From Arcuatula senhousia (Eukaryota > Mollusca > Bivalvia > Mytilida > Mytilidae), in assembly GCA_963971305.1 (NCBI GenBank), contig OZ020311.1, positions 2,480,001 to 2,544,000 on the forward strand: 64,000 nucleotides of DNA, written 5' to 3'. Each line of letters opens with the position of its first letter. The stretch's first letter is position 1. The notes beneath the pieces were generated by a model. That model was not told where the DNA came from, did no database searches, and saw nothing but the letters and a program-made list of their open reading frames with translations. Both the position numbers and the translations under genes were made by a program. Of this stretch, positions 812-49,476 are shown in pieces.

Positions 812-879
812 TTCCAGGAGTAGCAGTATTGTGTATAAAAGTCATGAAATAAGTACCATGTGTAACACCAAGAGGACCC

Positions 880-1157: not shown

Positions 1158-1214
1158 AGGACCCTTTGAACAGAAACACCAACACATAAATTCATGTGAT
1201 AAGTCTAATCCTAC

Positions 1215-1294
1215 CTTTGCAAACCAGAACACCCAAGAGTTGCAGCATCATATGGAGCCAGCTTTAACAGGGTGTGAGCAATCTCAGCCAGTCT
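1215..1294 (-). CDS. UNC80: UNC80 exon 15 of window
   Basis: 80 nt, phase 0 to 2. The acceptor is ATGTTAACAG and the donor is AAG|GTAGGA. It encodes RLAEIAHTLLKLAPYDAATL then GCSGLQ, matching the conserved 'RLAEIAHSLLKLAPYD' block. The next exon would encode the 'YIMEMLP' region and lies beyond the left edge. Confidence 0.93.
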
Positions 1295-19200: not shown

Positions 19201-22200
19201 ACACGGAGTTCAGTTTATTTTCAGAATATCTGTTTTTAGTTTAGGGAAAATACACGGACATGCTAGGTACGACGATAAAAGGGACTAAAGTCAAGAATTA
19301 TTGCTTGTACATTTAATTTTTCCCGATTTTTAACGTCATACTTTTTGCAAAAGTAGCCGGCGGATTTCTTTGAAGTTAACGGGTAAAACAGCCGGCTTCC
19401 CGCTTCTATTGAAAGCCCTGTCTGCAATAGTTTTCATTCCAAAGCAAAAAACACTATTTTTCACCTTTAAAGGGCCATAACCCCTTAAAGGGGTCATCTG
19501 ACAACTTCGACCCTAAAATGACTTTTGTAGAGCTAATTAAGCTGAACATTTAAGCAAGCAACATCTTTTCTCTATCTGCAAAAGTTTTCTTTCTTTAGGC
19601 CAAAAACACTATTTTTTGCCTTTAAGGGGCTGTAACCCCTATAGGGGGTCATCTGACAACTTCGACCATATGGAGACTTGTGTAGAGCTAAATGAGCTGA
19701 ACATATAAGCAAGCAACAGCTTTTCTCTATCTGCAATAGTTTTCATTCTATAGGCCAAAAACTCTATTTTTTGCCTTTAAGGGGCCATAACCCCTATAAG
19801 GGGTCATCTGACAACTTTGACCCTATGGAGACTTGTGTAGAGCTAAATGAGCTGAACATTTAAGCAAGCAACAGCTTTTCTCTATCTGCAATAGTTTTCA
19901 TTCTATAGGCCAAAAACACTATTTTTTGCCTTTAAGGGGCCGTAACCCCTATAAGGGGTCATCTGACAACTTCCACCCTATGGAGGCTTGTGTAGAGCTA
20001 AATGAGCTGAACATTTAAGCAAGCAACAGCTTTTCTCTATCTGCAATAGTTTTCATTCTATAGGCAAAAAACACTTTTTTTTGCCTTTATGGGGCCGTAA
20101 CCCCTATAAGGGGTCATCTGACAACTTCGACCCTATGAAGACTTTTGTAGAGCTAAATGAGCTGAACATTTAAGCAAGCAACAGCTTCTCTCTATCTGCA
20201 ATAGTTTTCATTCCATAGGCCAAAAACATGAAAAAATGCTATTTTTCACCTTTAAGGGGCCGTAACTCCCATAAGGGGTCATCTGACAACTTCGACTCAA
20301 TAGAGACTTTTGTAGAGCTTTTGATGCTGAAGCAGTGGCGTGGCATCAGATTTCATCTATCTCTTATACTTTTTGATTTACAAGCCAAAAACAGTAGTCT
20401 GACCCACCTGGTCTATTTTTAGCAACAGCGGCCATGTTTTTCGACGAATCAAAAATCCCCACATCAGTTCTGTGGGGGATACCCTAAAGTACCCCCAGAC
20501 CAAATTTGGTTTGAATCTGTGCAGCCGTTTCAGAGAAGAAGAAGTTTGAAGAAAAGTTAACGACGACGGCGACGGACAACGACGACGACGGACGCCAAGT
20601 GATGGCAATAGCTCACATGGCCTTTGGCCAGGTGAGCTAAAAATGGTAAATTTTGTTGTTTTAAGGACAATAACTCCTAATAAAAATGGTCCTACAGCTT
20701 TGACCTAAATACATACAATGTAGATCTTGATGTGCTTGATCATATGCAATTTATTTAAATTTTTAAAATATCTTATATAGTTTTCAAGATATATGGCTAA
20801 ATAAGTGAACATTTTTGAAAAAATCCAGAAAAAGGGCAATAACTCCTACATCAATTGTTGGATCTTCTTGAAACTTTCAGAGCAGGTAGATCTTGAGATG
20901 TTCACTTTTGTCTCCAATCATAATTTTGATATCTTAAACCATTTTTGAGTTATTAGCAAAAAACTGCAATTTACCCCTATGTTCTATTTTTAGCCATGGT
21001 GGCCATATTTTTTGACCAATCAAAAATCTGAACGATACACTTGTAGCATTTATGCTATCAAAGAACTGTGTTAAGTTTGGTTGAAGTTGGATGTATGGTG
21101 TCAGACAAGTTAATCTTCGAAATTCAGGAAAAGAGTAATGAAAAATGGTAAATTTTGACGCTTTAAGGGCCATAACTCCTAAAAGAAATGGTTCCACAGC
21201 TTTGACCTAATTACATGAAATGTAGATCTTAATGTGCTTAATCATATGCAATTTGAATTTTTAAAATATCTTGAATAGTTTTTAAGATAAAGGGCTAAAT
21301 AAGTGCAAATTTTGAAAAAATCCAGAAAAAGGGCAATAACTCCTACATCGGTTGTTGGATCTTCTTGAAAATTTCGGGGCAAGTAGATCTTGAGGTGCTG
21401 ATCACTTTAACCCTTGCCAGAATTTTGATGTCTGTCACCGTTTTTGAGTTATTTGCAAAAAACTGTATTTGACCCGCCCTGTTCTATTTTTAGTAACAGC
21501 GGCCATGTTTTTTGATGTATCAAAAATCCCAACGCAAACTTTTTGCACAATACCCTAAGGAACAACCATATCAAGTTTGGCTGCATTTGACCAAGCAGTT
21601 TCAGAGAAGAAGATGTTTGAAAAAAAGCTAACGTACGACGGAAGACGGACAACGGACGGACGACGGATGCAAAGTGATGGCAATAGCACCCTTCGGGTCA
21701 GGTGAGCTAATAAAAAGGCTGAAAGTAATCCGAATAAAGTCATTGGGTTGAAGATTATGATTAGCTCTGCAGGAGCCACTTTATAAGAACCAGGAAACAT
21801 GAACCCTACCTTGCATGAGAATCTTCCCTGTCATCATAATAACTGGTGCCACCTAGTGGTGAGTGGTTACTGGTGGCTTTAGCTGATGATTTCTCCATGT
21901 CTAACTGTCTCTGAGGAAGACTCATGTTCCTATAAAATAAAATAACACTATATTATAGTAACTGGTGCCACCCAGTGGTGAGTGGTTACTGGTGGCTTTA
22001 GCTGATGATTTCTCCATGTCTAGTTGTCTCTGAGGAAGACTCATGTTCCTATAAAATAAAATAACACTATATTATAGTAACTGGTGCCACCCAGTGGTGA
22101 GTGGTTACTGGTGGCCTTAGCTGATGATTTCTCCATGTCTAGTTGTCTCTGAGGAAGACTCATGTTCCTATATAATGAAATCATTGACGTGTTTTATCAA

Positions 22201-25200
22201 TTTTCATTAACCTGTGTAAAGAAGTGGGTCATTCTTTGAGAGTTTAAAGATTGGATTGAAACATTTGCATATTATATCTGCTAGGATTACCAGCTTTTAC
22301 ACATGTCTGTTGCAATAAGAAGGAAATGCTTACTTTTTCAGAGCACTAAAGTTGTTTGTCATGTGTGTGTGTTGGTATTTAACTCCCTTTTCAATACCTG
22401 AGCCATGCAGGACTGTAAGTTTTTGTTTGTCATGAGTTTGTGCTTCTAATTGCCATTGTGGTTTATGGTTTTGTCATGCTTTTTATGTCCCCTTATTAGA
22501 ATTCTCCTTTTTGAGAGAGTTTTAGAAAATGAACTATCTCAAGATCCTCTGCTTTTATTCATTGAAGTGCAATGAAATTTTTTAACAATTTCCAAGTTTT
22601 TTCTCTCTGACCTTTGTTTTTCTAAACTTTCTGCAAAACCATTTTACTTTGTAAAGTATTCACTACAACACAACAGAGCCCTCATGGCGATGGCTACATT
22701 ATTAATGACAGTGATCTCAGATCTGACGTACCTTGTAAAGTATTCACTACAACACAACAGAGCCCTCATGGTGATGGCTACATTACTGATGACAGTGATT
22801 TCAGATCTGACTTACCTTGTAAAGTATTCACTACAACACAACAGAGCTCTCATGGCTATGGCTACATTATTGATGACAGTGATTTCAGATCTGACGTACC
22901 TTGTAAAGTATTCACTACAGCACAACAGAGCCCTCATGGCGATGGCTACATTATTGATGACGGTGATTTCAGATCTGACGTACCTTGTAAAGTATTCACT
23001 ACAGCACAACAGAGCCCTCATGGCGATGGCTACATTATTGATGACAGTGATCTCAGATCTGACGTACCTTGTAAAGTATTCACTACAACACAACAGAGCC
23101 CTCATGGCGATGGCTACATTATTGATGACGGTGATTTCAGATCTGACGTACCTTGTAAAGTACCGTATTCACTACAACACAACAGAGCCCTCATGGTGAT
23201 GGCTACATTATTGATGACAGTGATTTCAGATCTGACGTACCTTGTAAAGTATTCACTACAACACAACAGAGCCCTCATGGTGATGGCTACATTATTGATG
23301 ACAGTGATTTCAGATCTGACGTACCTTGTAAAGTATTCACTACAACACAACAGAGCCCTCATGGCGATGGCTACATTATTAATGACAGTGATCTCAGATC
23401 TGACGTACCTTGTAAAGTATTCACTACAACACAACAGAGCCCTCATGGCGATGGCTACATTATTGATGACAGTGATTTCAGATCTGACGTACCTTGTAAA
23501 GTATTCACTACAACACAACAGAGCCCTCATGGCGATGGCTACATTACTGATGACAGTGATTTCAGATCTGACGTACCTTGTAAAGTATTCACTACAACAC
23601 AACAGAGCCCTCATGGCGATGGCTACATTATTGATGACAGTGATTTCAGATCTGACGTACCTTGTAAAGTATTCACTACAACACAACAGAGCCCTCATGG
23701 CGATGGCTACATTATTGATGACAGTGATTTCAGATCTGACATACCTTGTAAAGTATTCACTACAACACAACAGAGCCCTCATGGCGATGGCTACATTACT
23801 GATGACATTGATTTCAGATCTGACGTACCTTGTAAAGTATTCACTACAACACAACAGAGCCCTCATGGCGACGGCTACATTATTGATGACAGTGATCTCA
23901 GATCTGGCGTACCTTGTAAAGTATTCACTACAACACAACAGAGCCCTCATGGCGATGGCTACATTATTGATGACAGTGATTTCAGATCTGACGTACCTTG
24001 TAAAGTATTCACTACAACACAACAGAGCCCTCATGGCGATGGCTACATTATTGATGACAGTGATCTCAGATCTGACGTACCTTGTAAAGTATTCACTACA
24101 ACACAACAGAGCTCTCATGGCGATGGCTACATTATTGATGACAGTGATTTCAGATCTGACGTACCTTGTAAAGTATTCACTACAACACAACAGAGCCCTC
24201 ATGGCGATGGCTACATTATTGATGACAGTGATCTCAGATCTGACGTACCTTGTAAAGTATTCACTACAACACAACAGAGCCCTCATGGCGATGGCTACAT
24301 TACTGATGACAGTGATTTCAGATCTGATGTACCTTGTAAAGCATTCACTACAACACAACAGAGCCCTCATTCCTATGGCTACGTTATTGATGACAGTTAT
24401 CTCAGATCTGACGTACCTTGTAAAGTATTCACTACAACACAACAGAGCCCTCATGGCAATGGCTACGTTATTGATGACAGTGATTTCAGATCTGACGTAC
24501 CTTGTAAAGTATTCACTACAACACAACAGAGCCCTCATGGCAATGGCTACATTACTGATGACAGTGATTTCAGACCTGACATACCTTGTAAAGTATTCAC
24601 TACAACACAACAGATCCCTCATGGCAATGGCTAAATTATTGATGACAGTGATCTCAGATCTGACGTACCTTGTAAAGTATTCACTACAACACAACAGAGC
24701 CCTCATGGCAATGGCTACATTACTGATGACAGTGATTTCAGATCTGACGTACCTTGTAAAGTATTCACTACAACACAACAGAGCCCTCATGGCGATGGCT
24801 ACATTATTGATGACAGTGATTTCAGATCTGACGTACCTTGTAAAGTATTCGCTACAACACAACAGAGCCCTCATGGCCATGGCTACATTACTGATGACAG
24901 TGATTTCAGACCTGACGTACCTTGTAAAGTATTCACTACAACACAACAGAGCCCTCATGGCCATGGCTACATTACTGATGACATTGATTTCAGATCTGAC
25001 GTACCTTGTAAAGTATTCACTACAGCACAACAGAGCTCTCATGGCGATGGCTACATTATTGATGACAGTGATCTCAGATCTGACGTACCTTGTAAAGTAT
25101 TCACTACAACACAACAGAGCCCTCATGGCCATGGCTACATTACTGATGACATTGATTTCAGATCTGACGTACCTTGTAAAGTATTCACTACAACACAACA

Positions 25201-28200
25201 GAGCCCTCATGGCCATGGCTATATTATTGATGACAGTGATTTCAGATCTGACGTACCTTGTAAAGTATTCACTACAACACAACAGAGCCCTCATGGCAAT
25301 GGCTACATTACTGATGACATTGATTTCAGATCTGACGTACCTTGTAAAGTATTCACTACAACACAACAGAGCCCTCATGGCCATGGCTACATTACTGATG
25401 ACATTGATTTCAGATCTGACGTACCTTGTAAAGTATTCACTACAACACAACAGAGCCCTCATGGCAATGGCTACATTATTGATGACAGTGATTTCAGATC
25501 TGACGTACCTTGTAAAGTATTCACTACAACACAACAGAGCCCTCATGGCAATGGCTACATTATTGATGACAGTGATTTCAGATCTGAGGTACCTTGTAAA
25601 GTATTCACTACAACACAACAGAGCCCTCATGGCAATGGCTACATTATTGATGACAGTGATTTCAGATCTGAGGTACCTTGTAAAGTATTCACTACAACAC
25701 AACAGAGCCCTCATGGCGATGGCTACATTATTGATGACAGTGATCTCAGATCTGACGTACCTTGTAAAGTATTCACTACAACACAACAGAGCCCTCATGG
25801 CGATGGCTACATTATTGATGACAGTGATCTCAGATCTGACGTACCTTGTAAAGTATTCACTACAACACAACAGAGCCCTCATGGCGATGGCTACATTATT
25901 GATGACAGTGATTTCAGATCTGACGTACCTTGTAAAGTATTCACTACAACACAACAGAGCCCTCATGGCGATGGCTACATTATTGATGACAGTGATTTCA
26001 GATCTGACGTACCTTGTAAAGTATTCGCTACAACACAACAGAGCCCTCATGGCGATGGCTACATTATTGATGACAGTGATTTCAGATCTGACGTACCTTG
26101 TAAAGTATTCGCTACAACACAACAGAGCCCTCATGGCCATGGCTACATTACTGATGACAGTGATTTCAGATCTGACGTACCTTGTAAAGTATTCACTACA
26201 ACACAACAGAGCCCTCATGGCGATGGCTACATTACTGATGACAGTGATCTCAGATCTGAAGTACCTTGTAAAGTATTCACTACAACACAACAGAGCCCTC
26301 ATGGCGATGGCTACATTACTGATGACATTGATTTCAGATCTGACGTACCTTGTAAAGTATTCACTACAACACAACAGAGCCCTCATGGCGATGGCTACAT
26401 TATTGATGACAGTGATTTCAGATCTGACGTACCTTGTGAAATATTCACTACAACACAACAGAGCCCTCATGGCGATGGCTACATTACTGATGACAGTGAT
26501 TTCAGATCTGATGTACCTTGTAAAGTATTCACTACAACACAACAGAGCCCTCATGGCGATGGCTACATTATTGATGACAGTGATTTCAGACCTGACGTAC
26601 CTTGTAAAGTATTCGCTACAACACAACAGAGCCCTCATGGCGATGGCTACATTATTGATGACAGTGATTTCAGACCTGACGTACCTTGTAAAGTATTCAC
26701 TACAACACAACAGAGTCCTCATGGCGATGGCTAAATTATTGATGACAGTGATTTCAGATCTGACGTACCTTGTAAAGTATTCACTACAACACAACAGAGC
26801 CCTCATGGCGATGGCTACATTATTGATGACAGTGATTTCAGATCTGACGTACCTTGTAAAGTATTCACTACAACACAACAGAGCCCTCATGGCGATGGCT
26901 ACATTATTGATGACAGTGATTTCAGATCTGACGTACCTTGTAAAGTATTCACTACAACACAACAGAGCCCTCATGGCGATGGCTACATTACTGATGACAG
27001 TGATTTCAGATCTGACGTACCTTGTAAAGTATTCACTACAACACAACAGAGCCCTCATGGCGATGGCTACATTACTGATGACAGTGATTTCAGATCTGAC
27101 GTACCTTGTAAAGTATTCACTACAACACAACAGAGCCCTCATGGCGATGGCTACATTACTGATGACATTGATTTCAGATCTGACGTACCTTGTAAAGTAT
27201 TCACTACAACACAACAGAGCCCTCATGGCGATGGCTACATTATTGATGACAGTGATTTCAGATCTGACGTACCTTGTAAAGTATTCACTACAACACAACA
27301 GAGCCCTCATGGCGATGGCTACATTATTGATGACAGTGATCTCAGATCTGACGCACCTTGTAAAGTATTCACTACAACACAACAGAGCTCTCATGGCGAT
27401 GGCTACATTATTGATGACAGTGATCTCAGATCTGACGTACCTTGTAAAGTATTCACTACAACACAACAGAGCCCTCATGGCGATGGCTACATTATTGATG
27501 ACAGTGATCTCAGATCTGACGTACCTTGTAAAGTATTCACTACAACACAACAGAGCCCTCATGGCGATGGCTACATTACTGATGACAGTGATTTCAGATC
27601 TGATGTACCTTGTAAAGCATTCACTACAACACAACAGAGCCCTCATTCCTATGGCTACGTTATTGATGACAGTTATCTCAGATCTGACATACCTTGTAAA
27701 GTATTCACTACAACACAACAGAGCCCTCATGGCAATGGCTACGTTATTGATGACAGTGATTTCAGATCTGACGTACCTTGTAAAGTATTCACTACAACAC
27801 AACAGAGCCCTCATGGCAATGGCTACATTACTGATGACAGTGATTTCAGACCTGACGTACCTTGTAAAGTATTCACTACAACACAACAGATCCCTCATGG
27901 CAATGGCTAAATTATTGATGACAGTGATCTCAGATCTGACGTACCTTGTAAAGTATTCACTACAACACAACAGAGCCCTCATGGCAATGGCTACATTACT
28001 GATGACAGTGATTTCAGATCTGACGTACCTTGTAAAGTATTCACTACAACACAACAGAGCCCTCATGGCGATGGCTACATTATTGATGACAGTGATTTCA
28101 GATCTGACGTACCTTGTAAAGTATTCGCTACAACACAACAGAGCCCTCATGGCCATGGCTACATTACTGATGACAGTGATTTCAGACCTGACGTACCTTG

Positions 28201-31200
28201 TAAAGTATTCACTACAACACAACAGAGCCCTCATGGCCATGGCTACATTACTGATGACATTGATTTCAGATCTGACGTACCTTGTAAAGTATTCACTACA
28301 GCACAACAGAGCTCTCATGGCGATGGCTACATTATTGATGACAGTGATCTCAGATCTGACGTACCTTGTAAAGTATTCACTACAACACAACAGAGCCCTC
28401 ATGGCGATGGCTACATTATTGATGACAGTGATCTCAGATCTGACGTACCTTGTAAAGTATTCACTACAACACAACAGAGCCCTCATGGCGATGGCTACAT
28501 TATTGATGACAGTGATCTCAGATCTGACGTACCTTGTAAAGTATTCACTACAACACAACAGAGCCCTCATGGCGATGGCTACATTACTGATGACAGTGAT
28601 TTCAGATCTGATGTACCTTGTAAAGCATTCACTACAACACAACAGAGCCCTCATTCCTATGGCTACGTTATTGATGACAGTTATCTCAGATCTGACATAC
28701 CTTGTAAAGTATTCACTACAACACAACAGAGCCCTCATGGCAATGGCTACGTTATTGATGACAGTGATTTCAGATCTGACGTACCTTGTAAAGTATTCAC
28801 TACAACACAACAGAGCCCTCATGGCAATGGCTACATTACTGATGACAGTGATTTCAGACCTGACGTACCTTGTAAAGTATTCACTACAACACAACAGATC
28901 CCTCATGGCAATGGCTAAATTATTGATGACAGTGATCTCAGATCTGACGTACCTTGTAAAGTATTCACTACAACACAACAGAGCCCTCATGGCAATGGCT
29001 ACATTACTGATGACAGTGATTTCAGATCTGACGTACCTTGTAAAGTATTCACTACAACACAACAGAGCCCTCATGGCGATGGCTACATTATTGATGACAG
29101 TGATTTCAGATCTGACGTACCTTGTAAAGTATTCGCTACAACACAACAGAGCCCTCATGGCCATGGCTACATTACTGATGACAGTGATTTCAGACCTGAC
29201 GTACCTTGTAAAGTATTCACTACAACACAACAGAGCCCTCATGGCCATGGCTACATTACTGATGACATTGATTTCAGATCTGACGTACCTTGTAAAGTAT
29301 TCACTACAGCACAACAGAGCTCTCATGGCGATGGCTACATTATTGATGACAGTGATCTCAGATCTGACGTACCTTGTAAAGTATTCACTACAACACAACA
29401 GAGCCCTCATGGCCATGGCTACATTACTGATGACATTGATTTCAGATCTGACGTACCTTGTAAAGTATTCACTACAACACAACAGAGCCCTCATGGCCAT
29501 GGCTATATTATTGATGACAGTGATTTCAGATCTGACGTACCTTGTAAAGTATTCACTACAACACAACAGAGCCCTCATGGCAATGGCTACATTACTGATG
29601 ACATTGATTTCAGATCTGACGTACCTTGTAAAGTATTCACTACAACACAACAGAGCCCTCATGGCCATGGCTACATTACTGATGACATTGATTTCAGATC
29701 TGACGTACCTTGTAAAGTATTCACTACAACACAACAGAGCCCTCATGGCGATGGCTACATTACTGATGACATTGATTTCAGATCTGACGTACCTTGTAAA
29801 GTATTCACTACAACACAACAGAGCCCTCATGGCAATGGCTACATTACTGATGACATTGATTTCAGATCTGACCTACCTTGTAAAGTAGATGGCTATATTA
29901 TTGATGACAGTGATTTCAGATCTGACGTACCTTGTAAAATATTCACTACAACACAACAGAGCCCTCATGGCGATGGCTACATTATTGATGACAGTGATTT
30001 CAGATCTGACGTACCTTGTAAAGTAGATGGCTACATTATTGATGACAGTGATTTCAGATCTGACGTACCTTGTAAAGTATTCACTACAACACAACAGAGC
30101 CCTCATGGCGATGGCTACATTATTGATGACAGTGATTTCAGATCTGACGTACCTTGAAAAGTATTCACTACAACACAACAGAGCCCTCATGTTGATGGCT
30201 ACCTTACTGATGACAGTGATCTCAGATCTGACGTACCTTGTAAAGTATTCACTACAACACAACAGAGCCCTCATGGCAATGGCTACATTACTAATGACAG
30301 TGATTTCAGATCTGACATACCTTGTAAAGTATTCACTACAACACAACAGAGCCCTCATGGCAATGGCTAAATTATTGATGACAGTGATCTCAGATCTGCA
30401 TACCTTGTAAAGTATTCACTACAACACAACAGAGCTCTCATGGCGATGGCTACATTATTGATGACAGTGATCTCAGATCTGACGTACCTTGTAAAGTATT
30501 CACTACAACACAACAGAGCCCTCATGGCGATGGCTACATTATTGATGACGGTTATCTCAGATCTGACGTACCTTGTAAAGTATTCACTACAACACAACAG
30601 AGCCCTCATGGCGATGGCTACATTACTGATGACAGTGATTTCAGATCTGACGTACCTTGTAAAGTATTCACTACAACACAACAGAGCCCTCATGGCAATG
30701 GCTACATTACTGATGACAGTGATTTCAGATCTGACGTACCTTGTAAAGTGTTCACTACAACACAACAGAGCCCTCATGGCAATGGCTAAATTATTGATGA
30801 CAGTGATCTCAGATCTGACGTAACTTGTAAAGTATTCACTACAACACAACAGAGCCCTCATGGCCATGGCTACATTACTGATGACATTGATTTCAGATCT
30901 GACGTACCTTGTAAAGTATTCACTACAGCACAACAGAGCTCTCATGGCGATGGCTACATTATTGATGACAGTGATCTCAGATCTGACGTACCTTGTAAAG
31001 TATTCACTACAACACAACAGAGCCCTCATGGCCATGGCTACATTACTGATGACATTGATTTCAGATCTGACGTACCTTGTAAAGTATTCACTACAACACA
31101 ACAGAGCCCTCATGGCCATGGCTACATTATTGATGACAGTGATTTCAGATCTGACGTACCTTGTAAAGTATTCACTACAACACAACAGAGCCCTCATGGC

Positions 31201-34200
31201 AATGGCTACATTACTGATGACATTGATTTCAGATCTGACGTACCTTGTAAAGTATTCACTACAACACAACAGAGCCCTCATGGCCATGGCTACATTACTG
31301 ATGACATTGATTTCAGATCTGACGTACCTTGTAAAGTATTCACTACAACACAACAGAGCCCTCATGGCGATGGCTACATTACTGATGACATTGATTTCAG
31401 ATCTGACGTACCTTGTAAAGTATTCACTACAACACAACAGAGCCCGCATGGCAATGGCTACATTACTGATGACATTGATTTCAGATCTGACCTACCTTGT
31501 AAAGTAGATGGCTACATTATTGATGACAGTGATTTCAGATCTGACGTACCTTGTAAAATATTCACTACAACACAACAGAGCCCTCATGGCGATGGCTACA
31601 TTATTGATGACAGTGATTTCAGATCTGATCTACCTTGTAAAGTAGATTGCTACATTATTGATGACAGTGATTTCAGATCTGACGTACCTTGTAAAGTATT
31701 CACTACAACACAACAGAGCCCTCATGGCGATGGCTACGTTACTGATGAAAGTGATTTCAGATCTGACGTACCTTGTAAAGTATTCACTACAACACGTACA
31801 ACAGAGCCCTCATGGTGATTGCTACATTACTGATGACAGTGATTTCAGATCTGACGTACCTTGTAAAGTATTCCCTACAGCACAACAGAGCCCTCATGGC
31901 AATGGCTACATTATTGATGACAGTGATCTCAGATCTGACATACCTTGTAAAGTATTCACTACAACACAACAGAGCCCTCATGGCGATGGCTACATTACTG
32001 ATGACAGTGATCTCAGATCTGACGTACCTTGTAAAGTATTCACTACAACACAACAGAGCCCTCATGGCGATGGCTACATTATTGATGACAGTAATCTCAG
32101 ATCTAGCAGCTGTTGGGTTGTCTCTTTGGTTTGTATTCTTCTTCAGATGGTCAAGGTATCTTGGAATAAGGACATCTAAGATTTTCTGTAAAGGAATTGT
32201 TGTTGTAAGTTTGTTAAAAGAACTAGAATGGCAATCTCCAATGGAAGACTTAAATGGAATGTTGCCTTTATAATATAAAGAAATAGAAATAGAAATACAT
32301 GTAGATAAAGAAAGAATGTGTCCATGGGACACAGATGCCCCCGCAAATAAAAATTCGAAGTTCAACAGGTCTGAAAGTTGCTTAGGACGCATAGTTTATC
32401 ATACTTAACCATCCTACTAAGTTTCAAATCATTCCCATGTACGGTGTCTGAGAAAAGCTTGACAGAAATTTTCAAGTCGATTTTGGTATTGATCCAGCCC
32501 CAAACAGGAAGTAGATGTCCGACAGGTCTAAAATTCTCTTAGGACGTAGTTTGTAATACTGAACCATCCTACCAAGTTTCAAGTCATTCCCATTTACGGT
32601 TTCTGAGAAAAGCTTGACGGAAATTTGTACCGACGTACGGACGGACATGAGTAAAACTTAATGCCCCCCGACATGTTGTCGCAGGGGCATAAAAATAGAA
32701 GACTTACAGGCATAAAATCATTTTACACCTTAGTATTATATTACAAAGATACAAACCATATATCAAAAGGTCTTGGCATGTAGTTGCTTGGAAATCTGTA
32801 ACTGAATTTTGGCCGCTACAGAGGATATAGGATAGTGTTGAAGTGACCCTTTTGTGTTGCTTTGCAACATGTTACAGTCAAAAGGCAAACAAAACTTTTT
32901 TTTGAAAATGTTTGAAGAAATGTGTTGCCCGCCAGGTGGGAGTTGCTTTTCAAGTTTTTTTCTAAGCTTATCTATAATGTATTGGAAAACAATTCTAAAC
33001 TTTTTGTTATACCTTTTTTTGTTTGCAATGTACAAGTGTCACTTTTATTAAATAGGTTGCTCACATTGAGTATTCTTTTTATAAAAGCTCTTCAAAAGGA
33101 CTTTAAGGAGATTTATGTCTCCTCCACACACAGGAGAAAACATTATGTTCAATCTCTCCCTATGGACTAGCAGCATCCTTGCTAATGGTGTCAAAAGAGA
33201 AATTGGTAATTTTTAGTTTTTGTCCTTTACTAAATTTTTGATGCAAAAAGTCTTTAATAACTCAAATACATACCAGCATCTGAACACTTCTAAATGAGTC
33301 AGGGGCATAGGCTATCACAGTTACACACATATTGACAGCATCAATCATTTCTAGTCTGTCAGAGTCATTCTCATAACAAAAATCCTGTAAAAGAATGAAA
33401 TAAAAAAACAAAGTTTAATGATTTGGAAACATAGTTGTTTGTTGTTATTCTTAGCAATCAATATCAATCTCCTATGAAAATATCAAAAGTAGAACATTTA
33501 TTTTAATTTTCTTCATTGAGGATGTGCCAATAAACCAGGAAAACACATTATGCTCTTTTAATTCAAACTAAAGAAAACAATATGACTTTTTTTTAATATC
33601 GTAATGTGACAACAACATTTTTGTTTTGTTACAAACATGTACATGTATAATGTGTCTTGGAAGAAATATCTTTACATAGGCAGTAAGCATTGCAATTGAA
33701 TATCTGAACAAAGTTTTGGGAAACCTGAGTGTGACAGAAGGATATGCTAAAAGAACTAGAGGACATACAGGTACAAAATCTATATCTCATGCAACAGTGG
33801 ATAATTTAAGGTGAATTTCAGACAGATTTTTCTTTGGTGAACCTACCAGTGCTCTTAGTGGTTTTTCACCTTGAACTAGATCAAGGACATACAGATTGTC
33901 AGGGCATTCTTTACCTAGGGATAACAGCAGTTGAAACAAGACATCTGGTTGGATCTGAAAAACAGAGAAAATCATTGGATAATAATTCAAAGGTGGAATG
34001 TTACATAAAATTTCATTGGTAAACAATGTTTTTGAAGTTTAAATTATTTTATTATAAACAACATCAACTGAGGAAGCTTTTCAAAACCCTAAGGTTCCTC
34101 ATATATTAGACATACAGCATGGTGCCATAAATGAGTCAACTTTTTTAATGGCCGTCATATTGTTTTTTTCCAAGGGGGACGTTTTTAACGTCACTATCAT

Positions 34201-40200: not shown

Positions 40201-43200
40201 ATACTAAATTATTCAGCAGTCCCTGAAATATGAAAATGGTTTATTATTTTCATTGCTTAAGGGTCTTTACCTTTCTACAATCCATCATTCCACTTTCTGA
40301 TGAAGATTCATCTAGTAATGGCACAATACTTCCAAACATCTAGAAAAAAGACCTCAAATAGTTATACATGTAACAATTACACTTTACTGCTAAACATCTT
40401 AAAATACTGAATACTGTTAACCAGGATTTTTGGAGCCATCTTTTTTTTCCAGTATTTTCTGAATTTTAGTTCGCTCATCTATAAATTTGCGATTGTAATT
40501 TTATTGTCCTTAAGACTACAATGGAAAACAAATAAATTGATGCTGTTTAATTTTCGCGCTACCAATGTCTGTGTGAAAATAACGAAAATTAAACTGTCGC
40601 AAAAATTTCCCAGTTTATAATAACAGAAAATAAATGAAGCTTTTCCTAGGAAGTTAAGGTTCTGGCAATGTATTTTTTTTTAGAATGCATAACATGCATA
40701 AAGTAGATTTAAAGGGCATATTTAGCATAAAAATAATTTTACACCATAAAGTAAGTACTACAAGATGAAGTGACAAGCAAAAAGTAAAAGAGATATTATA
40801 GCATGTATTACTAGTAGTTCATTAAAGGTGTACAGGTGTAAAGGAATTAGAAAACAACAAGGGGTTGCACTAAGTCGTGCTAAGCATACCCCCACTCGAC
40901 TTTTCAGAAAACAGGATGTAGATGACTGACTTGCCCAGAAAGGGGAGGCACAGTACAATGCATCATGCTTAAGCTTTATACTTAATTAGAAATTAATCCC
41001 TTAAGTAGAAATTAAAAAATCTGTTCATTTTTTACCCTTTAAATAGTCTAAGTTGGCTCGGAAAACAGGAAGTATATGACCGACTGACCTGAAAAGGGGA
41101 GGCACGGTACAACTCATCATGCAGAATCTGTGTACCAAATTATAAATTAATCCCTTCAGTAGAAGCTAAGAAATCTGTTATTAAAATGTTTCCATTTTTT
41201 ACCCTTAAAATAGTCTAAGTCGGCTTGAAAAACAGGAAGTATATGACCGACTGACCTGAAAAGGGGAGGCACGGTACAACTCATCATGCTGAACCTGTAT
41301 ACCAAATTATAAATCAATCCCTTCAGTAGAAGCTGAGAAAAATGTTACGAAAAAATTTCCCATTTTTGACCCTTAAAATAGTCTAAGTCGGCTCGAAAAA
41401 CAGGAAGTATATGACCGACTGACCTGAAAAGGGGAGGCACGGTACAACTCATCATGCTGAACCTGTATACCAAATTTAAAATCAATCCCTTCAGTAGAAG
41501 CTGAGAAAAGTGTTACGAAAAATTTCCCATTTTTGACCCTTAAAATAGTCTAAGTCGGCTCCAAAAACAGGAAGTATATGACCGACTGACCTGAAAAGGG
41601 AAGGCACTGTACAACTCATCATGCTGAACCTGTATACCAAATTTAAAATCAATCCCTTCAGTAGAAGCTGAGAAAACTGTTACGAAAAATTTCCCATTTT
41701 TTACCCTTAAAATAGTCTAAGTCGGCTCGGAAAACAGAAAGTAGATCATGGACTGACCTGAAAAGTTGAGGTAATGTACATTGCATCATGCTTAAGCTGT
41801 CTACCAAATTTGATATCAATCCCTTCAATAGAAGCCGAGATATTGTACCGGACGGACAGACGGACGGACGGACGGACAAGGTGATTGCAATATAGCCCCC
41901 TCTCTTACGAGTGGGGGTATAATGACAGATTCTAGGTTCCCCAACCTGGAGTAGAAAAAATCTTAGTAGGCTTATTAGTAGTTAGATAAGCAACAGACCT
42001 AAAAATGCATTCCATTTTATGGTGACCCTACTTTAAGCTGCATACCAAATTATTGATAATTGCTGAGAAATGAGTATGTTCGGAAAGGGCCAAAAAAGGC
42101 GCTAAATTTCAAATTCGAGACAGCTACGAAAAAATGCAGCTAGAATGGTCATAAGACCCTATACTTTATAAAATGTCATAAATTGTGCATGAATTGTTTA
42201 CTTTCGTGAACAACAGACACCTTTTAAGTTAGTGAACTTCTTTAAAAATCGCTGTTTTTGACATACATGTATTTAGCCTCTTTTTCGGAAAAAAATTATG
42301 AATATAATGTTGGCCGCATATTCTGACCAAAATTATTTTTTGGTTAAAATATTCACTTTTAAGTCATAAATTAATAAACAAAAATCTATGATGGTCAGAG
42401 CATGCGGCCACTCTTGATTTTGGCACAATAGTGGTGAAAAGGGGTAAAAAATCGACAAAAATGAAGATTTTCCTGATTTTTCACATATTTAGGGTGCCAT
42501 CGAAGGAAATAGCACAATTATAATTGTAAAATATATGTATTCTGTGAGCTATTTTCAAAGCATTCATTAAGGTTTCTTGAAAATCAAAAATCAGCCAAAT
42601 TACAGGGCCATTTATAGGCCTTTGTGAACATACTCCTTTGTTATGAAACAAGTGATACTGGTGGACACCATCATTTCTATGCCTATGTCCATTGCAACAG
42701 GGGACAATAACCTCATTTCTAAAGTTTCATTACCAACCTGTAGTATAAAGGGTTTCCTATGAAGTATGTAGAATGTTTTACAGATGAACTGTATGGCTGT
42801 CACCAGTACAGGGTTTGGTTGGTTATTGCTCAGAGTTTTCAGCAGTGTCGGCATAATGTAGTTAAATCTGAAAAGAAACAATTTCTTTTAATCGATTTGT
42901 TAATCTTAAAGAAAAAATTAAGTGCATTTGTTAGAACTTTTGATCAACAGATTCTAAGATATATATTTCAAACTGGAAAAGCTACAAAATAATTCATTAT
43001 GAAAAGTTTAACTGTGATACATGAATCTCTTCAAAAATACATGCACATCCACATGGCATCGTTTAACAGTATAGGTTGATGCAAATAAGAGGAAATGTTT
43101 CTTTATTTCTGAAATTTCTTGGAAATTAAAGTTTGTTTTTGCCTACAAAAACGATTTCCCCCCCTCCCTCCCCCCCCCCCCCATCCCCAAAAATTTCCAA

Positions 43201-49200: not shown

Positions 49201-49476
49201 GTACAGCCAATAATACAAAAAAAATATTCCTTAAAGAATAGCCAAACCCAACCAACCAGGCCCTTAATATAAAAAATAACCTCATGTATGGGTAACAGTT
49301 ACTGTGTGTGGTGTGGTATTCAAACCAGGGTCTTAGACCACTATACCTACCCAGCACCTTTAGTACTAGATACGTACCTCATGTATGGGCAACTGAGTTG
49401 GTATACTGGTCTGGTCAGTTCCATGAACTATTATCTTCTTAGCACTTGGAACCATGGCAGATATCAACAGGTAAGG
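1215..49476 (-). CDS. UNC80: UNC80 (NALCN channel complex subunit), central to C-terminal part, 15 exons, partial
   Basis: UNC80 is a very large, HEAT-like scaffold protein that links UNC79 to the NALCN sodium-leak channel at the neuronal plasma membrane and is needed for resting sodium conductance (family knowledge). Fifteen minus-strand exons, listed separately, all have GT/AG borders and join without a phase conflict to about 574 codons. Hallmark segments match the vertebrate and insect family in order: IVHGTDQTSIPTQLPIHE, SLEFFNIPEEDYPSYFLVD, LPSFPRKALEAEFGLY, LFLNVINGCIILHCEDSA, YILHRKPFILQMFGS, MCVTVIAYAPDSFRSVQML and RLAEIAHTLLKLAPYD. The protein continues beyond the left edge; the N-terminal part was not found to the right of 49476. 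Introns are heavily loaded with repeats. Identity is secure; the gene's total extent is not known from this window. Confidence 0.93.
1830..2040 (-). CDS. UNC80: UNC80 exon 14 of window
   Basis: 211 nt, phase 2 to 0. The acceptor is ACTTTTTCAG and the donor is AAT|GTATGT. It encodes RHMEEGRKKTYVHDLDDTD, then DFRKPRDILLNVIAGFYATC and LLDFKSHN. Family proteins have '(E)FRRPRESLLNICTEFY' and 'LLDVKSHMRLAEIAHSL' here. It joins exon 13 in phase, although an intervening exon cannot be excluded. Confidence 0.92.
6542..8545. mobile_element. 2.0-kb TIR element (GGCGAGCGGCGGA ends)
   Basis: GGCGAGCGGCGGA at the left and TCCGCCGCTCGCC at the right are perfect inverted repeats with TA at both borders (6540-6541 and 8546-8547). 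Similarity continues inward for about 150 bp (AAATTACCC-AAAACCTCATG and ATGTTTG...TGGTCAGAA on both arms). The longest ORF (6810-7067) resembles nothing I know, so it is called nonautonomous. Confidence 0.7.
8548..14269. other. Intron/TE interior without recognisable genes
   Basis: AT-rich sequence inside the level-4 element. Only ORFs below about 95 codons are present, with no family resemblance and no consistent splice pattern. It includes a short GC-rich MITE-like piece at 12167-12310 and a run of 'TTGCGCCA' motifs at 11600-11670. Confidence 0.5.
12167..12310. mobile_element. Short MITE-like repeat (AGGCGGATCC ends)
   Basis: AGGCGGATCC at the left and GGATCCGCCT at the right are inverted. 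The interior is rich in GGGCCCCC. The element is 144 bp with no coding capacity. Confidence 0.55.
14277..14829. mobile_element. MITE with CCACAGAA-repeat TIRs
   Basis: The left arm GGTGCGTCTTTTTACCACAG is inverted at 14807-14826. Both arms continue as tandem ACCACAGAAC/ACCACAGAAT units. Direct repeats GATAGAT flank it (14270-14276 and 14830-14836). It is 553 bp and AT-rich inside, with no ORF of note. Confidence 0.75.
15014..16025 (+). mobile_element. Complete pearl-like element (AGGCTCCC head)
   Basis: The head is AGAGGCTCCCAGGAGCCTGA, then GCTCACCTGATC. Two to three core units follow (AACTCCT...GACCCCCCTGTTCTATTTTT...GGCGGCCATGTTGGTTGGTC), then a GACGGACGACGGACG tail and the hairpin GACCCTTCGGGTC running into AGGTGAGCTAA. 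It is the best-preserved copy of the family in the window. Confidence 0.8.
16394..16780. mobile_element. TA-flanked MITE packed with ACGT palindromes
   Basis: The termini CACAGGCAAAAT and ATTTTGCCTGTG are perfect inverted repeats with TA on both sides. The 387-bp interior carries many copies, in both orientations, of CGTACGT and GTCTGACGTA-like motifs. It has no coding capacity. Confidence 0.8.
21810..21929 (-). CDS. UNC80: UNC80 exon 13 of window
   Basis: 120 nt, phase 2 to 2. The acceptor is TTTTATAG and the donor is AAG|GTAGGG. It encodes NMSLPQRQLDMEKSSAKATS then NHSPLGGTSYYDDREDSHA, a low-complexity hydrophilic stretch found at the same place in other UNC80 proteins. Two partial upstream copies (21959-22175) repeat its acceptor and first 90 or so bases without the donor. 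Confidence 0.82.
21958..22175 (-). repeat. Two partial tandem copies of UNC80 exon 13
   Basis: With exon 13 this makes three copies at a period of about 120 bp. Each extra copy keeps the acceptor (TTATAG|GAACATGAG) and about 90 bases of exon, but loses the last 28 bases and the donor. Reading from one copy into the next hits a stop, so productive splicing should use the copy at 21810-21929. Confidence 0.85.
22176..22649. other. Intron sequence between exon 13 copies and satellite
   Basis: AT-rich, with a partial SINE-like piece at 22362-22420 (TGTGTGTGTTGGTATTTAAC). Nothing else was recognised. Confidence 0.5.
22650..32104 (-). repeat. 84-bp satellite derived from UNC80 exon 12 (about 112 copies)
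   Basis: About 9.45 kb of head-to-tail 84-bp monomers. On the plus strand each runs GACGTACCTTGTAAAG...GAGCCCTCATGGC...TTGATGACAGTGATCTCAG. On the minus strand it reads RSEITVINNVAIAM + RALLCCSEYFTRYV, identical in layout to the end of UNC80 exon 12 plus 7 intronic bases. Nearly every monomer has the donor AAG|GTACGT or a close variant with GT kept. Because 84 is divisible by 3 and indels are rare, open frames of more than 2,200 codons exist on both strands between 23114 and 29888. Common variants (T/N, S/N, I/M) are mostly nonsynonymous, which argues that the array is not constrained as protein. Irregular points: 54-bp short monomers at 29886, 30023, 31506 and 31643, a 4-bp insertion near 31797, and a degenerate last donor at 22650. 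Confidence 0.95.
32028..32185 (-). CDS. UNC80: UNC80 exon 12 of window, founder of the 84-bp satellite
   Basis: 158 nt, phase 0 to 2, if the first donor is used. The acceptor is CCTTTACAG. It encodes KILDVLIPRYLDHLKKNTNQ then RDNPTAARSEITVINNVAI and AMRALLCCSEYFT, ending at AAG|GTACGT. This corresponds to the family segment beginning 'MVLEALVPCYLQKMKR', followed by 'REEIAATAALATSLQALLYS'. The last 78 nt of the exon plus 7 nt of intron are the first copy of the downstream 84-bp array. Splicing from this first donor to exon 13 is phase-compatible (AG|G, giving Arg). Confidence 0.9.
32105..32185 (-). other. UNC80: Unique 5' part of UNC80 exon 12 adjoining the array
   Basis: This marks the exact junction. 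Sequence AGCAGCTGTTGGGTTG (plus strand) onwards is single-copy exon, while 32104 and below is monomer 1. The array therefore started inside the exon and grew towards and past its donor. Confidence 0.85.
32314..32693 (+). mobile_element. Pearl-like element (GATGCCCCCGC type)
   Basis: Begins GTGTCCATGGGACACAGATG, has two core units of about 120-160 bp (CATCCTAC-AAGTTTCAA-TCATTCCCAT), a CGGACGGACATGAG tail and ends TGTCGCAGGGGCATAA, inverted to the start. A minus-strand relative is at 61135-61650. Confidence 0.65.
33274..33384 (-). CDS. UNC80: UNC80 exon 11 of window
   Basis: 111 nt, phase 0 to 0. The acceptor is CTTTTACAG and the donor is CTG|GTATGT. It encodes DFCYENDSDRLEMIDAVNMC then VTVIAYAPDSFRSVQML, one of the best-conserved UNC80 blocks. 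Confidence 0.94.
33847..33954 (-). CDS. UNC80: UNC80 exon 10 of window
   Basis: 108 nt, phase 0 to 0. The acceptor is CTGTTTTTCAG and the donor is CTG|GTAGGT. It encodes IQPDVLFQLLLSLGKECPDN then LYVLDLVQGEKPLRAL. The LDLV-x-EKPL-x-L motif is conserved. Confidence 0.92.
34309..36336 (+). pseudogene. Tc1-family transposase, split by an insertion
   Basis: DDE transposase that would cut and rejoin the TIRs. The N-terminal bipartite helix-turn-helix region covers SDDTKRNIIQLIESGHRASH and SKSTISRLLKRWR. The catalytic domain has FSDE (first Asp), FQDDNAPCH (second Asp) and SPDLSPIE (Glu), with spacing typical of DD34E. The frame ends artificially at 35193, because foreign sequence enters directly after the catalytic Glu codon (35174). 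The missing C-terminus (IWLLIKNKIKNRL to QKGDITKY and a stop) is intact at 36145-36336. No other frameshift is visible, so the copy was probably young when it was hit. ATG 34309 or 34324 may be the start; 34324 has the better context (AAAATGG). Confidence 0.92.
35174..36145 (+). mobile_element. Pearl-like element inserted in the Tc1 transposase
   Basis: Head ACAAGTAAATCTGTGAGC, then GATACCCCCGCTCC. Almost five core units of about 170 bp follow (AAACAGGAAGTAGACTACCT...TCATGTAGTTGC...GTTAAAACCTAAGTATTC), then a GGACGGACGAACGAACGGAC tail and GAAGCGGGGGTATA, inverted to the head. The interrupted transposase codons give its exact borders. Confidence 0.85.
37075..40170 (-). mobile_element. 5'-truncated non-LTR retrotransposon (LINE)
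   Basis: The element contains the reverse transcriptase ORF, a 3' untranslated stretch and an A-rich GAAGAAAAGAAGAAGAAG tail near 37080. Coding similarity extends upstream of the ORF to about 40170 but in another frame, so the 5' end is frameshifted and the endonuclease part is absent. It lies in the UNC80 intron between exons 9 and 10, in the same orientation as the gene. Confidence 0.8.
37453..39885 (-). CDS. LINE reverse transcriptase (ORF2 remnant, 810 aa)
   Basis: Reverse transcriptase of a non-LTR element, used in target-primed reverse transcription. The domain spans roughly residues 180-430. Motif A is FFITIDSQKAFDVVNH with the catalytic Asp near 282; the GVRQGGVLSTHLYKIYNN block is near 338-355; the motif C box is CADD (380-383), with Cys in place of the usual Tyr or Phe. 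A thumb-like region follows, and a C-terminal zinc-binding motif CLIC-x8-H-x4-C lies near 708-725. The ATG at 39885 is only the first Met after a frameshift; homologous coding sequence continues upstream. No AP-endonuclease domain is present. The clade (Jockey/CR1-like or other) is not determined. Confidence 0.9.
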   Translation of the reverse strand: MKSKQAYKEWTNQGKPTNGPSHSLKVTAQRQLRRQFRMEKLQDKQNFYDEIMANPTTDMFYRLIRRNRGQQNVQTNCITENNHDYYHPDEQRQCFLKYFEDLSIPKDKGYDNTYIELCENRHTLIRELYKDKKPLSKISEQEVENAILRLNTGKSQDEFGISSEHLRYSGKILIPVITTIFNKILDEGTFPANLKSGILTPILKKSKDPKLLDNYRGITVTPIFTKLFEYVLLPKLEECFDQSSLQFGFTTGLSMLLAALLISEARAETTMQNMTLFFITIDSQKAFDVVNHTIMLDKLYETGIQPAIWNIVRDLYNGLTSKIKWAGHISEPFHIKQGVRQGGVLSTHLYKIYNNNLLKELEHASLGLRLGKTYVGCPTCADDIALISNNHQELQSMLNVLHRHSIQDRVTINPTKTKAISLNKYKKDTSLTWKLGDSEISPTNQTVHLGIIRSESKENEINIEDRISLARRTLYALINTGVHGTNGLNPTVSYKIYQTYVLPKLLYGIEVLPLNQTQISTLSKFHLSNLRRFQSMPTRTSTAMVHLMLGALPIEAEIHKRQLSFLHNILTCDNATIQKLTERQLMLSEHIPSSFFTKISQILSLYDLPSVQTLMSEMPPKEKWKFVCKKALAEAWTLKLQKEMESKSSLQYVNKENMRIGRAHNTWLSLPPCTVDIRKGITKCRMLTGTFMTQSTRFKFNTSDNPICLICGVGEEDLVHILFECSSLFNLRKDSFLKIKQKVIAIVGKETWVKVFHEKTALMKLFMDSSFYCNLFSDGQLKDIDRLTTAYCHQIYVKRITLMKLNELHK
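40271..40339 (-). CDS. UNC80: UNC80 exon 9 of window
   Basis: 69 nt, phase 0 to 0. The acceptor is TTTTTCTAG and the donor is AAG|GTAAAG. It encodes MFGSIVPLLDESSSESGMMD then CRK, the 'FGSVxPLL' segment that follows 'HRKPFILQ'. Confidence 0.9.
40860..41922 (+). mobile_element. Pearl-like element, about five to six core units
   Basis: Head ACAAGGGGTTGCACTAAGTC then GCATACCCCCACTCG. Core units of about 168 bp repeat GGAAGTATATGACCGACTGA and GGCACGGTACAACTCATCAT. The tail is GGACGGACAGACGGACGGAC, ending CTTACGAGTGGGGGTATA, inverted to the head. Located in the UNC80 intron between exons 8 and 9. Confidence 0.82.
41923..42737. other. Intron sequence
   Basis: AT-rich intron between the pearl-like element and UNC80 exon 8. 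No ORF, repeat structure or RNA gene was recognised. Confidence 0.5.
42738..42867 (-). CDS. UNC80: UNC80 exon 8 of window
   Basis: 130 nt, phase 2 to 0. The acceptor is TTTTCAG and the donor is CAG|GTTGGT. It encodes FNYIMPTLLKTLSNNQPNPV then AIQFICKTFYILHRKPFILQ. The YILHRKPF block is nearly invariant in UNC80. Confidence 0.94.
43150..43748 (+). mobile_element. Pearl-like element (GTCTCCCC type)
   Basis: Starts near a C-rich run, then three and a half units of about 175 bp (GGGCCATAACTCCCACAAAA, GGTAATATGCACAACTACAT, CAGTTTCAGAGGAGTTG). The tail GACGGACGGACGGACATGAC and hairpin GTCTCCCCACAAAAGTGGGG follow. Located in the intron between UNC80 exons 7 and 8. Confidence 0.78.
44077..44261 (-). 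CDS. UNC80: UNC80 exon 7 of window
   Basis: 185 nt, phase 0 to 2. The acceptor is CTTTTCAG and the donor is TGG|GTGAGT. It includes SNDLQLFLNVINGCIILHCE and SAMLRFCLTSLINTSIHFKY. Partial tandem copies of its acceptor and first 90 or so bases lie just upstream in the transcript (44325-44705). Confidence 0.93.
44325..44705 (-). repeat. Partial tandem copies of UNC80 exon 7
   Basis: Two to three imperfect units of about 168 bp. Each repeats the exon 7 acceptor (TTTTTCAG|TTAATGACA) and up to about 90 bases of exon, plus a unit-specific ATCAATCAATCAATACAA stretch. The copies lack the rest of the exon and its donor, so they look like dead exon fragments with live-looking 3' splice sites. Confidence 0.8.
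44876..44920 (-). CDS. UNC80: UNC80 exon 6 of window (45-nt microexon)
   Basis: 45 nt, phase 0 to 0. The acceptor is TTTTACAG and the donor is AAG|GTAAGA. It encodes ELYGMDTLHKYSWVK, matching the conserved 'ELxGLDxLxKxxW' segment that follows the previous exon in the family. Confidence 0.9.
45161..45529. mobile_element. TTAA-flanked MITE (GGATGCTCGCT ends)
   Basis: GGATGCTCGCT and AGCGAACATCC (one mismatch) are inverted and sit directly inside TTAA tetranucleotides at 45157-45160 and 45530-45533, the pattern of piggyBac-type insertion. It is 369 bp and has no coding capacity. Confidence 0.7.
45771..45878 (-). CDS. UNC80: UNC80 exon 5 of window
   Basis: 108 nt, phase 0 to 0. The acceptor is TTTTACAG and the donor is CAA|GTTAGT. 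It encodes LQNHVSFLHEEFLKLPSFPR then KALEAEFGLYGGNWGQ. Confidence 0.92.
46269..46346 (-). CDS. UNC80: UNC80 exon 4 of window
   Basis: 78 nt, phase 0 to 0. The acceptor is CTTTTTAG and the donor is CAG|GTAAAA. It encodes AFTLKFVEIGKVLFTTAVLK then STPAHQ. Confidence 0.92.
46765..46886 (-). CDS. UNC80: UNC80 exon 3 of window
   Basis: 122 nt, phase 1 to 0. The acceptor is ATTTACAG and the donor is CAG|GTAAAT. It encodes QIHNLNSYVRDFYFFRRNFY then PQLSLVNMDPDKAFQELDKQ. The YVRD-FRR-PQL-LV-M pattern is diagnostic for UNC80. Confidence 0.93.
46928..48090 (+). mobile_element. Pearl-like element interrupted by a foldback element
   Basis: Head-side ATACCCCGCCAC and tail-side GTGGCGGGGTAT are inverted. 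Units begin ATTTCAAAGTGGCCTATCT and contain GGATCATGCTGGAAAT and TTGACCTGTATTTTATTGTA. The tail is GGACGGACGGACGGACAGAC. The unit is broken at 47121, where a palindromic element enters. Confidence 0.75.
47122..47705. mobile_element. 584-bp foldback element
   Basis: The outer arms AAAGGACAAGATATGATAAG and CTTATCATATCTTGTCCTTT are exact complements. Similarity continues imperfectly for most of the length, including GCAAATTTAACTATGAGCCA near 47354, which is inverted near 47460-47490. It could fold into one long hairpin. Intact neighbouring core units show it to be an insertion. Confidence 0.75.
49019..49115 (-). CDS. UNC80: UNC80 exon 2 of window
   Basis: 97 nt, phase 0 to 1. The acceptor is ATTTTTCAG and the donor is CTA|GTAAGA. 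It encodes DTQFSQILQESLEFFNIPEE then DYPSYFLVDSKS, a highly conserved UNC80 block. Confidence 0.92.
49378..49476 (-). CDS. UNC80: UNC80 exon 1 of window
   Basis: 99 nt, phase 0 to 0. The acceptor is TTTTCAG and the donor is GAG|GTACGTA. It encodes PYLLISAMVPSAKKIIVHG followed by the conserved PTQLPIHE that ends just before the 'DTQF' exon. This is the furthest upstream UNC80 exon I can support. In other animals the preceding residues end in a lysine-rich KKEQC segment, which I did not find to the right. Confidence 0.9.

Follow-up and report, generated by a model that had tools for sequence, protein, structure and literature searches.

Minisatellites and satellites can arise from host sequence. 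Human UBC, in which nine coding monomers make up the gene product, and VCX3A are both tandem arrays with dual-specific splice sites (PMC10809524). What guides the spliceosome when 5' splice sites are equal is a standing question, approached with pairs of sites in minigenes in PMC9225289. There, the upstream donor was used exclusively when a minigene contained two strong, identical donors flanked by 365-nt introns, and it was favoured in 60% of human events with near-equal donors; a downstream preference of ~60% is given for all human events before matching for donor strength, together with a preference for the downstream donor in short introns and skipping of larger exons when both donors are weak. 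A search of the open-licence PMC literature yielded no description of an array that was founded by an exon and carries a donor in each unit.

The window analysed here, a stretch of 64,000 nucleotides from Arcuatula senhousia, carries on its minus strand part of a UNC80 gene in which the end of one coding exon runs directly into a long array of 84-bp units (Table 1). Judging from the sequence, the spliceosome probably picks the first donor of this exon-end array, or one of the earliest few, and the remaining ladder of donors is discarded as intron. The identity of the gene is supported by a match to the UNC80_C family (PF20262, E 1.2e-152) spanning several exons, as well as by the solved UNC80 chains 7w7g_B/7sx3_E/7wji_A, which match several exons with E about 1e-83. 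In the alignment to human UNC80 the founding exon corresponds to residues about 2368-2420, and its join to the next exon is crossed gap-free. No match was returned when the 52-residue exon was searched against a protein database, or when phmmer was run with a 40-residue piece. The Pfam and PDB alignments thus uphold UNC80 as the gene of the founder, which the preliminary description had called exon 12, a number that is a count internal to the window.

Table 1. Features of the UNC80 locus in the window, in the order of the minus strand
Feature	Position	Strand	Remarks
PYLL... exon	49378..49476	-	UNC80 exon
FNYI... exon	42738..42866	-	protein identical in A, B, C, D
MFGS... exon	40271..40339	-	identical in A, B, C; D differs by two residues
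IQPD... exon	33847..33954	-	protein identical in A, B, C, D
DFCY... exon, upstream	33274..33384	-	protein identical in A, B, C, D
Array-founding UNC80 exon, 158 nt to first donor, KILDVLIPRYLDHLKKNTNQRDNPTAARSEITVINNVAIAMRALLCCSEYFTR	32028..32185	-	acceptor CCTTTACAG|AAAATC; UNC80_C profile 546-599; PDB UNC80 alignment
Donor 1, AAG|GTACGT; predicted to serve as the 5' splice site	32022..32030	-	U1 pairing energy -6.4
84-bp unit array, nearly all units ending AAG|GT	22648..32027	-	112 intervals scored, 113 once the unsplit one is divided
88-bp unit following donor 3, 4-bp insertion	31772..31859	-	frame lost here; first stop 31789
Terminal boundary AAA|GTAAAA, weak in A	22642..22650	-	AAG|GTAAAT in B and C, AAG|GTAAAG in D
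119-bp repeat in 2.9 tandem copies, covering acceptor and 5' part of the next exon	21836..22181	-	exon-like starts 22167, 22048, 21929
UNC80 exon next after the array ('exon 13'); codes for NMSLPQRQLDMEKSSAKATSNHSPLGGTSYYDDREDSHA plus split codons	21810..21929	-	UNC80 alignment
HMEE... exon, array-downstream	1830..2036	-	protein identical in A, B, C
RLAE... exon, array-downstream	1214..1294	-	protein identical in A, B, C

Tandem Repeats Finder reports for 22645-32104 a period of 84, 112.0 copies and 91% matches (score 15032), and the listing of boundaries places the array against the founding exon (32185-32028) without a gap, from the first donor GT at 32027 to the last boundary at 22647; the about 112 units beginning at the exon itself, as initially proposed, are borne out by both. 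GT is present at 113 of the 114 boundaries in the window (113 located positions plus AAG|GTATGC, left unsplit within an interval of 167 nt). Among the located positions, AAG|GTACGT accounts for 92, AAG|GTATGT for six, the terminal AAA|GTAAAA for one and a boundary without GT for one, and the last of these (AAG|TTACGT, in the unit near 30826) agrees with the preliminary description, which had placed a donor in almost every unit and a rare loss of GT at this unit. Runs of 11 and 10 identical units recur at lags of 12 and 51 units, so that the array, with its many head-to-tail and near-identical units and block copying, has the properties of a minisatellite or satellite. The PYLL... exon has a donor of its own, GAG|GTACGT, with the same hexamer as the array.

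Every unit contains an exon end and an intron start. The array probably originated in a single tandem duplication that took in the final 81 nt of the exon together with the GTA opening the intron (3 nt), in place of the 78 nt of exon and 7 nt of intron first suggested. The resulting junction would have brought exon letters (Ala codons) to positions +4 to +6 and thereby restored a good donor; the terminal flank GTAAAT in copies B and C and one unit reading GTACGCC support a founding junction of this kind, and the terminal boundary is likely the ancestral donor position.

The genome contains four tandem UNC80 C-terminal halves (A, which is the window copy, B, C and D) on one contig, with the N-terminal domain detected once, at 2.896 Mb, an arrangement not expected of a subunit of the NALCN channel. 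Exon and array occur together at all four places matched by UNC80_C profile 546-599, with 114 boundaries in A, 43 in B, 47 in C and 20 in D, and the 119-bp repeat at the next exon is present in the window copy and single in B, C and D. No unlinked copy of the satellite was found: among the matches listed, which comprised four scored of five candidates and did not include the array of the window itself, all arrays lie at the same exon of UNC80 halves on the same contig, and the proposed link to UNC80 withstands this check. Long tandem arrays may be mis-sized in assemblies; as an explanation for the array itself, an assembly artefact is extremely improbable in view of its presence at four separate loci, the diversity of the 210 units of 84 bp at these loci (109 different sequences) and the homologous flanks at uninterrupted array ends in all copies. 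Independent founding of each array is unlikely as well, because the unit junction GTACGTCAG is shared by the four arrays and missing from the exon-resident copies. The four array consensuses are identical, although the intron next to them shows 25-28% divergence of A from the other copies, which calls for exchange between arrays or for constraint, not separate neutral drift.

Over nine exons previously recognised as conserved, which lie on both sides of the array, halves A, B and C differ pairwise by 43-50 silent and 0 replacement changes (each pair compared over ~222 silent and ~783 replacement sites), amounting to ~20% silent divergence with identical protein; copy D is identical in protein in six of the seven exons seen. 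We infer that the copies are expressed. Such protein identity, combined with the early stops in the arrays, points to a full-length product and hence to a donor ahead of the stops. The first donor is AAG|GTACGT in all four copies, and its U1 pairing energy falls within the range of the eight other donors of the gene (-3.5 to -10.1) and is not stronger than that of the array consensus. Exon definition would couple the acceptor of the exon with the nearest donor, giving a 158-nt exon and a 10.1-kb intron, and the array would be tolerated because the first donor equals the later ones in quality and is nearer. Counted against use of the first donor are the downstream and skipping cases in PMC9225289, the scored units of copy B with neither stop nor frame-shift, the excess of silent and shortage of replacement variant types and the identical array consensuses.

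The unit consensus is 28 codons without a stop, as had been noted; the individual units depart from it, with an in-frame stop in four of the 112 scored window intervals and a length not divisible by 3 in three (one each of 88, 83 and 89 bp, next to four in-frame units of 54 bp). In the window the 4-bp insertion behind donor 3 brings a stop at 31789 into frame, so that an open join to the next exon can be made from just three of the 114 boundaries, and the expectation that any donor would give an in-frame protein fails at the other 111. Open joins number 2/47 in C and 5/20 in D, with the first in-frame stop following donor 2 and donor 5, respectively (donor 3 in A). Copy B is open throughout its upstream part (1117 residues from the exon start, 37/37 GT donors productive), and its 41 scored units show no stop and no frame-shift, with P = 0.004 on the assumption of independent units, which these are not; they are also less diverged than the others. 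A variable repeat protein from the whole window array is rejected on frame, boundaries 1-3 of 114 being open. Units that are open and in frame, as a coding variable-number repeat would have, are thus confined to the upstream part of copy B, and as a source of variable repeat proteins, suggested at the outset, most of the window array drops out; copy B may still be one.

It is quite unlikely that donor choice yields UNC80 isoforms differing in how many 28-residue inserts follow human residue about 2420. The 84-nt unit with its open consensus, copy B and an insertion point just before a poorly conserved stretch in the alignment speak for it, as does the excess of silent variant types within the arrays (24 vs. 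18.9 expected, P = 0.04), accompanied by a deficit of replacement types (43 vs. 49.2 expected, P = 0.018), but the frame is closed at most boundaries of A, C and D and a 15.2-kb insertion splits the array of copy B. An AlphaFold model of the copy B exon with eight units, made without an alignment, is almost all-beta and of low confidence (mean pLDDT 65); the UNC80 fold is helical, with which an all-beta repeat is at odds, and the model was treated as uninformative and not used.

Use of the AAG|GT boundaries as both donor and acceptor, so that units included by a late donor would be removed later in 84-nt multiples to give the same mRNA, is unlikely; the sequence as such would allow new 84-nt introns in the array. 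The sequence AGGT stands at 112 of the 114 window boundaries, dual-specific AGGT sites bound the monomers of human UBC, and human tandem repeats show an 8.4-fold enrichment of introns spliced at sites of this kind (PMC10809524). In a position matrix built from ten acceptors of the gene, the unit AG scores 5.0 vs. 4.7 for the acceptor of the founding exon; however, eight of the ten real acceptors score 9.3-16.1 in this ten-site matrix, the unit is low in pyrimidines (8/16) with a further AG just upstream, and the first donor alone suffices.

U1 snRNP protects long transcripts from early cleavage and polyadenylation (telescripting), and with more than 100 U1-pairing sites within one intron the array might be kept for such shielding. 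In its favour, boundaries are fewest in D (20), the half closest to the one N-terminal domain detected, and most numerous in the farthest (A, 114). We consider this role very unlikely: C (47) and B (43) break the order among only four points, and the donor GT is conserved no better than other unit positions (2 variant types vs. 1.73 expected), on which ground donor conservation was also rejected as a mark of selected donors. A reading that joins these elements is quite improbable: one UNC80 head would serve four C-terminal halves of near-identical protein, and a self-renewing donor ladder in each would set splicing and transcript reach, late choices being reversed by 84-nt steps at AAG|GT, ladder-held U1 taking the polymerase beyond nearer halves and whole units entering the copy B protein.

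With discarding of the ladder behind the first donor as the probable outcome, the locus would constitute a natural test of donor choice: a single chromosome carries four paralogous halves in which the same exon is followed by 20, 43, 47 or 114 near-identical boundaries, and the stop codons, lying at differing depths, are informative about the donors that can be chiefly used. A coding exon end that would have seeded a satellite in a strongly conserved gene marks an extreme case of intron growth by tandem duplication. As in the potato intron case, a short duplication spanning a splice boundary provides ready splice sites; there one duplication gave one new intron, whereas here ~112 units lie inside a pre-existing intron. 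As in the minigenes described in PMC9225289, identical donors compete for one exon between long flanking introns, here with up to 113 natural GT boundaries in four paralogous halves instead of two sites. Host-born minisatellites share the head-to-tail units, block duplication and homogenised monomers, but here the monomer consists of a coding exon end plus donor, and in every copy found it is anchored at the founding exon. The array has, by sequence, the features of a dual-specific array of the UBC type (PMC10809524), namely head-to-tail repeats, an AGGT boundary and a unit length that is a multiple of 3, so that splicing at any boundary can keep the frame in both; unlike UBC, it places 20-114 boundaries behind one exon end, most of them unreadable in frame in three of the four copies.

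The nine window exon peptides, concatenated in gene order, matched solved UNC80 chains (E about 1e-83) as well as Pfam UNC80_C (E 1.2e-152), and the alignment places the counterpart of the array exon at about residues 2368-2420 of the 3258 residues of human UNC80. The array exon joins the next exon ungapped in this alignment (FTR|NMSLPQ vs. human LTR|PMTAPQ), which is the product expected from donor 1, the first 5' splice site, at the array exon's own end. From that end, 84-bp units run head-to-tail down to a final boundary at window position 22647, with a total of 114 boundaries (113 located and one unsplit inside a 167-nt interval). AAG|GTACGT is found at 92 of the 113 located boundaries, a single boundary lacks GT (AAG|TTACGT), and the terminal one reads AAA|GTAAAA. 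Two blocks of the array alternate 84- and 54-bp units, forming higher-order repeats of 138 and 222 bp; the 54-bp units likewise end in a donor.

Positions of the array exon, the UNC80 halves and associated features
Feature	Position	Strand	Details
UNC80 array exon	window 32185-32028	minus	acceptor CCTTTACAG before it; 3' end ACAAG|GTACGT
Alternating 84-/54-bp blocks	window 31205-31871 and 29582-30247		
119-bp repeat	window 21836-22181		2.9 copies
162-bp repeat	window 44330-44707		2.3 copies
Intact exon copy behind 162-bp repeat	window about 44076-44270		
Extra RLAE exon copies	window 750-824 and about 1340-1370		decayed
UNC80 N-terminal family match	C9:2895448-2896841		
Half D	C9 2.872-2.751 Mb	minus	UNC80_C matches; 20 boundaries
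Half C	C9 2.707-2.668 Mb	minus	UNC80_C matches; 47 boundaries
Half B	C9 2.648-2.592 Mb	minus	UNC80_C matches; 38 + 5 boundaries, 42 with GT
Insertion in B array	C9:2603933-2619133		15.2 kb
Half A	C9 2.561-2.474 Mb	minus	UNC80_C matches; 114 boundaries, 113 with GT

A search of the 1.036-Gb genome with 501 bases of the array yielded at least 30 matches, all on C9 at 2.60-2.84 Mb, a lower bound with four of five candidates scored and the array of the window itself (C9:2480001-2544000) missing among the matches listed. The UNC80_C family gave at least 46 matches (43 of 282 candidates scored), all on the minus strand of C9 at 2.47-2.87 Mb, and those listed group into four tandem C-terminal halves, A (the window copy), B, C and D; among these listed matches, the array is present at all four places matching the array exon (profile 546-599). 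The UNC80 N-terminal family was found at one place only, upstream of D (5/5 candidates scored). The layout over C9:2473752-2896841 comprises one detected N-terminal domain and four C-terminal halves. In both A and B, <2 kb separates the duplicated exon-like block found farthest upstream from the final UNC80_C match in the half that comes next, leaving little room there for a head (the N-terminal part of UNC80). The insertion interrupting the array of B is bounded by GCCCCRGTTTCATAAAAC inverted ends and a CTG target duplication, contains transposase-like reading frames, and looks like a PIF/Harbinger-type element.

Pairs among A, B and C differ over nine exons (1,005 nt) by 43-50 silent and 0 replacement changes (pS 0.20-0.225, pN 0), these exons being a favourable choice, namely those already recognised as conserved, with three of the nine downstream of the array. 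Of the seven exons compared in D (one outside the nine), six show no difference in protein and the seventh carries two changed residues. Several of the central reading frames compared differ by a few per cent (only matches of at least 95% being covered). We read this exon conservation as strong purifying selection and, from the silent-only divergence, infer that these halves give rise to a full-length product.

Translated from the exon into the array, A reads 132 residues before its stop, D 169 and C 81; the reading frame of B has no stop in the stretch analysed (1,117 residues). An open join to the next exon is provided by 3/114 boundaries in A, 2/47 in C and 5/20 in D, and by all 37 GT boundaries in the upstream portion of the B array. 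Should A, C and D make a full-length product, their main mRNA would use one of the first few donors. The array exon (158 nt) and its downstream intron (10.1 kb) represent an exon-definition setting, and PMC9225289 reports exclusive use of the upstream donor in minigenes with two identical strong donors, an upstream preference in 60% of human events with near-equal donors, and a downstream preference in about 60% of all human events together. Based on this setting and the published upstream preference with identical donors, donor 1 is the predicted choice of the spliceosome.

The array consensus is identical in all four halves, and units diverge by 3.1-4.4% within and 3.7-4.9% between arrays. 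Just downstream of the array, the intron of A has diverged from the other three by 25-28%, that of D from B or C by 6.0-6.5%, and that of B from C by 0.5%. Such a near-identical flank in B and C, set against their silent divergence of about 20% in the nine exons, suggests a recent exchange between these halves near the array. Of 109 distinct 84-bp units, twelve are shared by two or more arrays: the consensus itself, six units one change away from it, four that are two changes away and one that is three away. Sharing between arrays also holds for 18 of 71 variant types, and array A contains stretches of 11, 10 and 6 identical units that recur at lags of 12, 51 and 39 units; we read all of this as ongoing exchange, both inside single arrays and from one array to another. 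Alternatively, the unit may be under constraint, in line with silent variant types slightly above expectation (24 vs. 18.9, P = 0.04) and replacement types below it (43 vs. 49.2, P = 0.018); the GT positions of the units show no extra conservation (2 variant types vs. 1.73 expected). U1 binding, a possible function of the array, finds no backing in the conservation of units.

With respect to origin, the last unit continues into AAG|GTAAATTG in B and C and into AAG|GTAAAGTG in D, and the boundary inside the array reads AAG|GTA-CGTC-AGATCTGA. Exon-resident copies have GCTGCT, GCCGCT, GCTGCC or GCAGCT ahead of AGATCTGA, and one array unit has GTACGCC. The simplest origin would be a tandem duplication in which GTA became fused to the exon letters CG(C/T)C, by which positions +4 to +6 of the array donors would be former Ala codon letters.

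Other exon edges are also multiplied. For the exon that follows the array, the acceptor together with the 5' portion is repeated with a period of 119 bp, which is no multiple of 3, and the last start alone reads through to that exon's donor. In another UNC80 exon, the acceptor and the 5' portion form a 162-bp tandem repeat with an intact copy of the exon behind it, a second exon edge starting to multiply; at this site B, C and D showed nothing beyond single, decayed extra pieces. Decayed extra copies flank the RLAE exon (named by its first residues), the one at 750-824 being also present in B and C (72-76% protein identity, matched stretch stop-free).

Our literature search (open-licence papers) returned no array with as many as 114 boundaries that had one exon end as its founder and was retained at that exon in four halves of a gene. 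Known kinds are tandem duplication across splice boundaries (PMC4974935) and tandem arrays of dual-use splice sites (PMC10809524). The AAG|GT boundary could also be usable as an acceptor: scored on a matrix built from ten acceptors of this gene, the boundary reaches 5.0, near the 4.7 of the acceptor that precedes the array exon but below most of the other acceptors. If it works so, units retained by a late donor could later be excised. In human UBC, according to PMC10809524, AGGT sites between monomers act as donor and acceptor, whereas in the UNC80 array, with AAG|GT at its boundaries, the acceptor role is putative.
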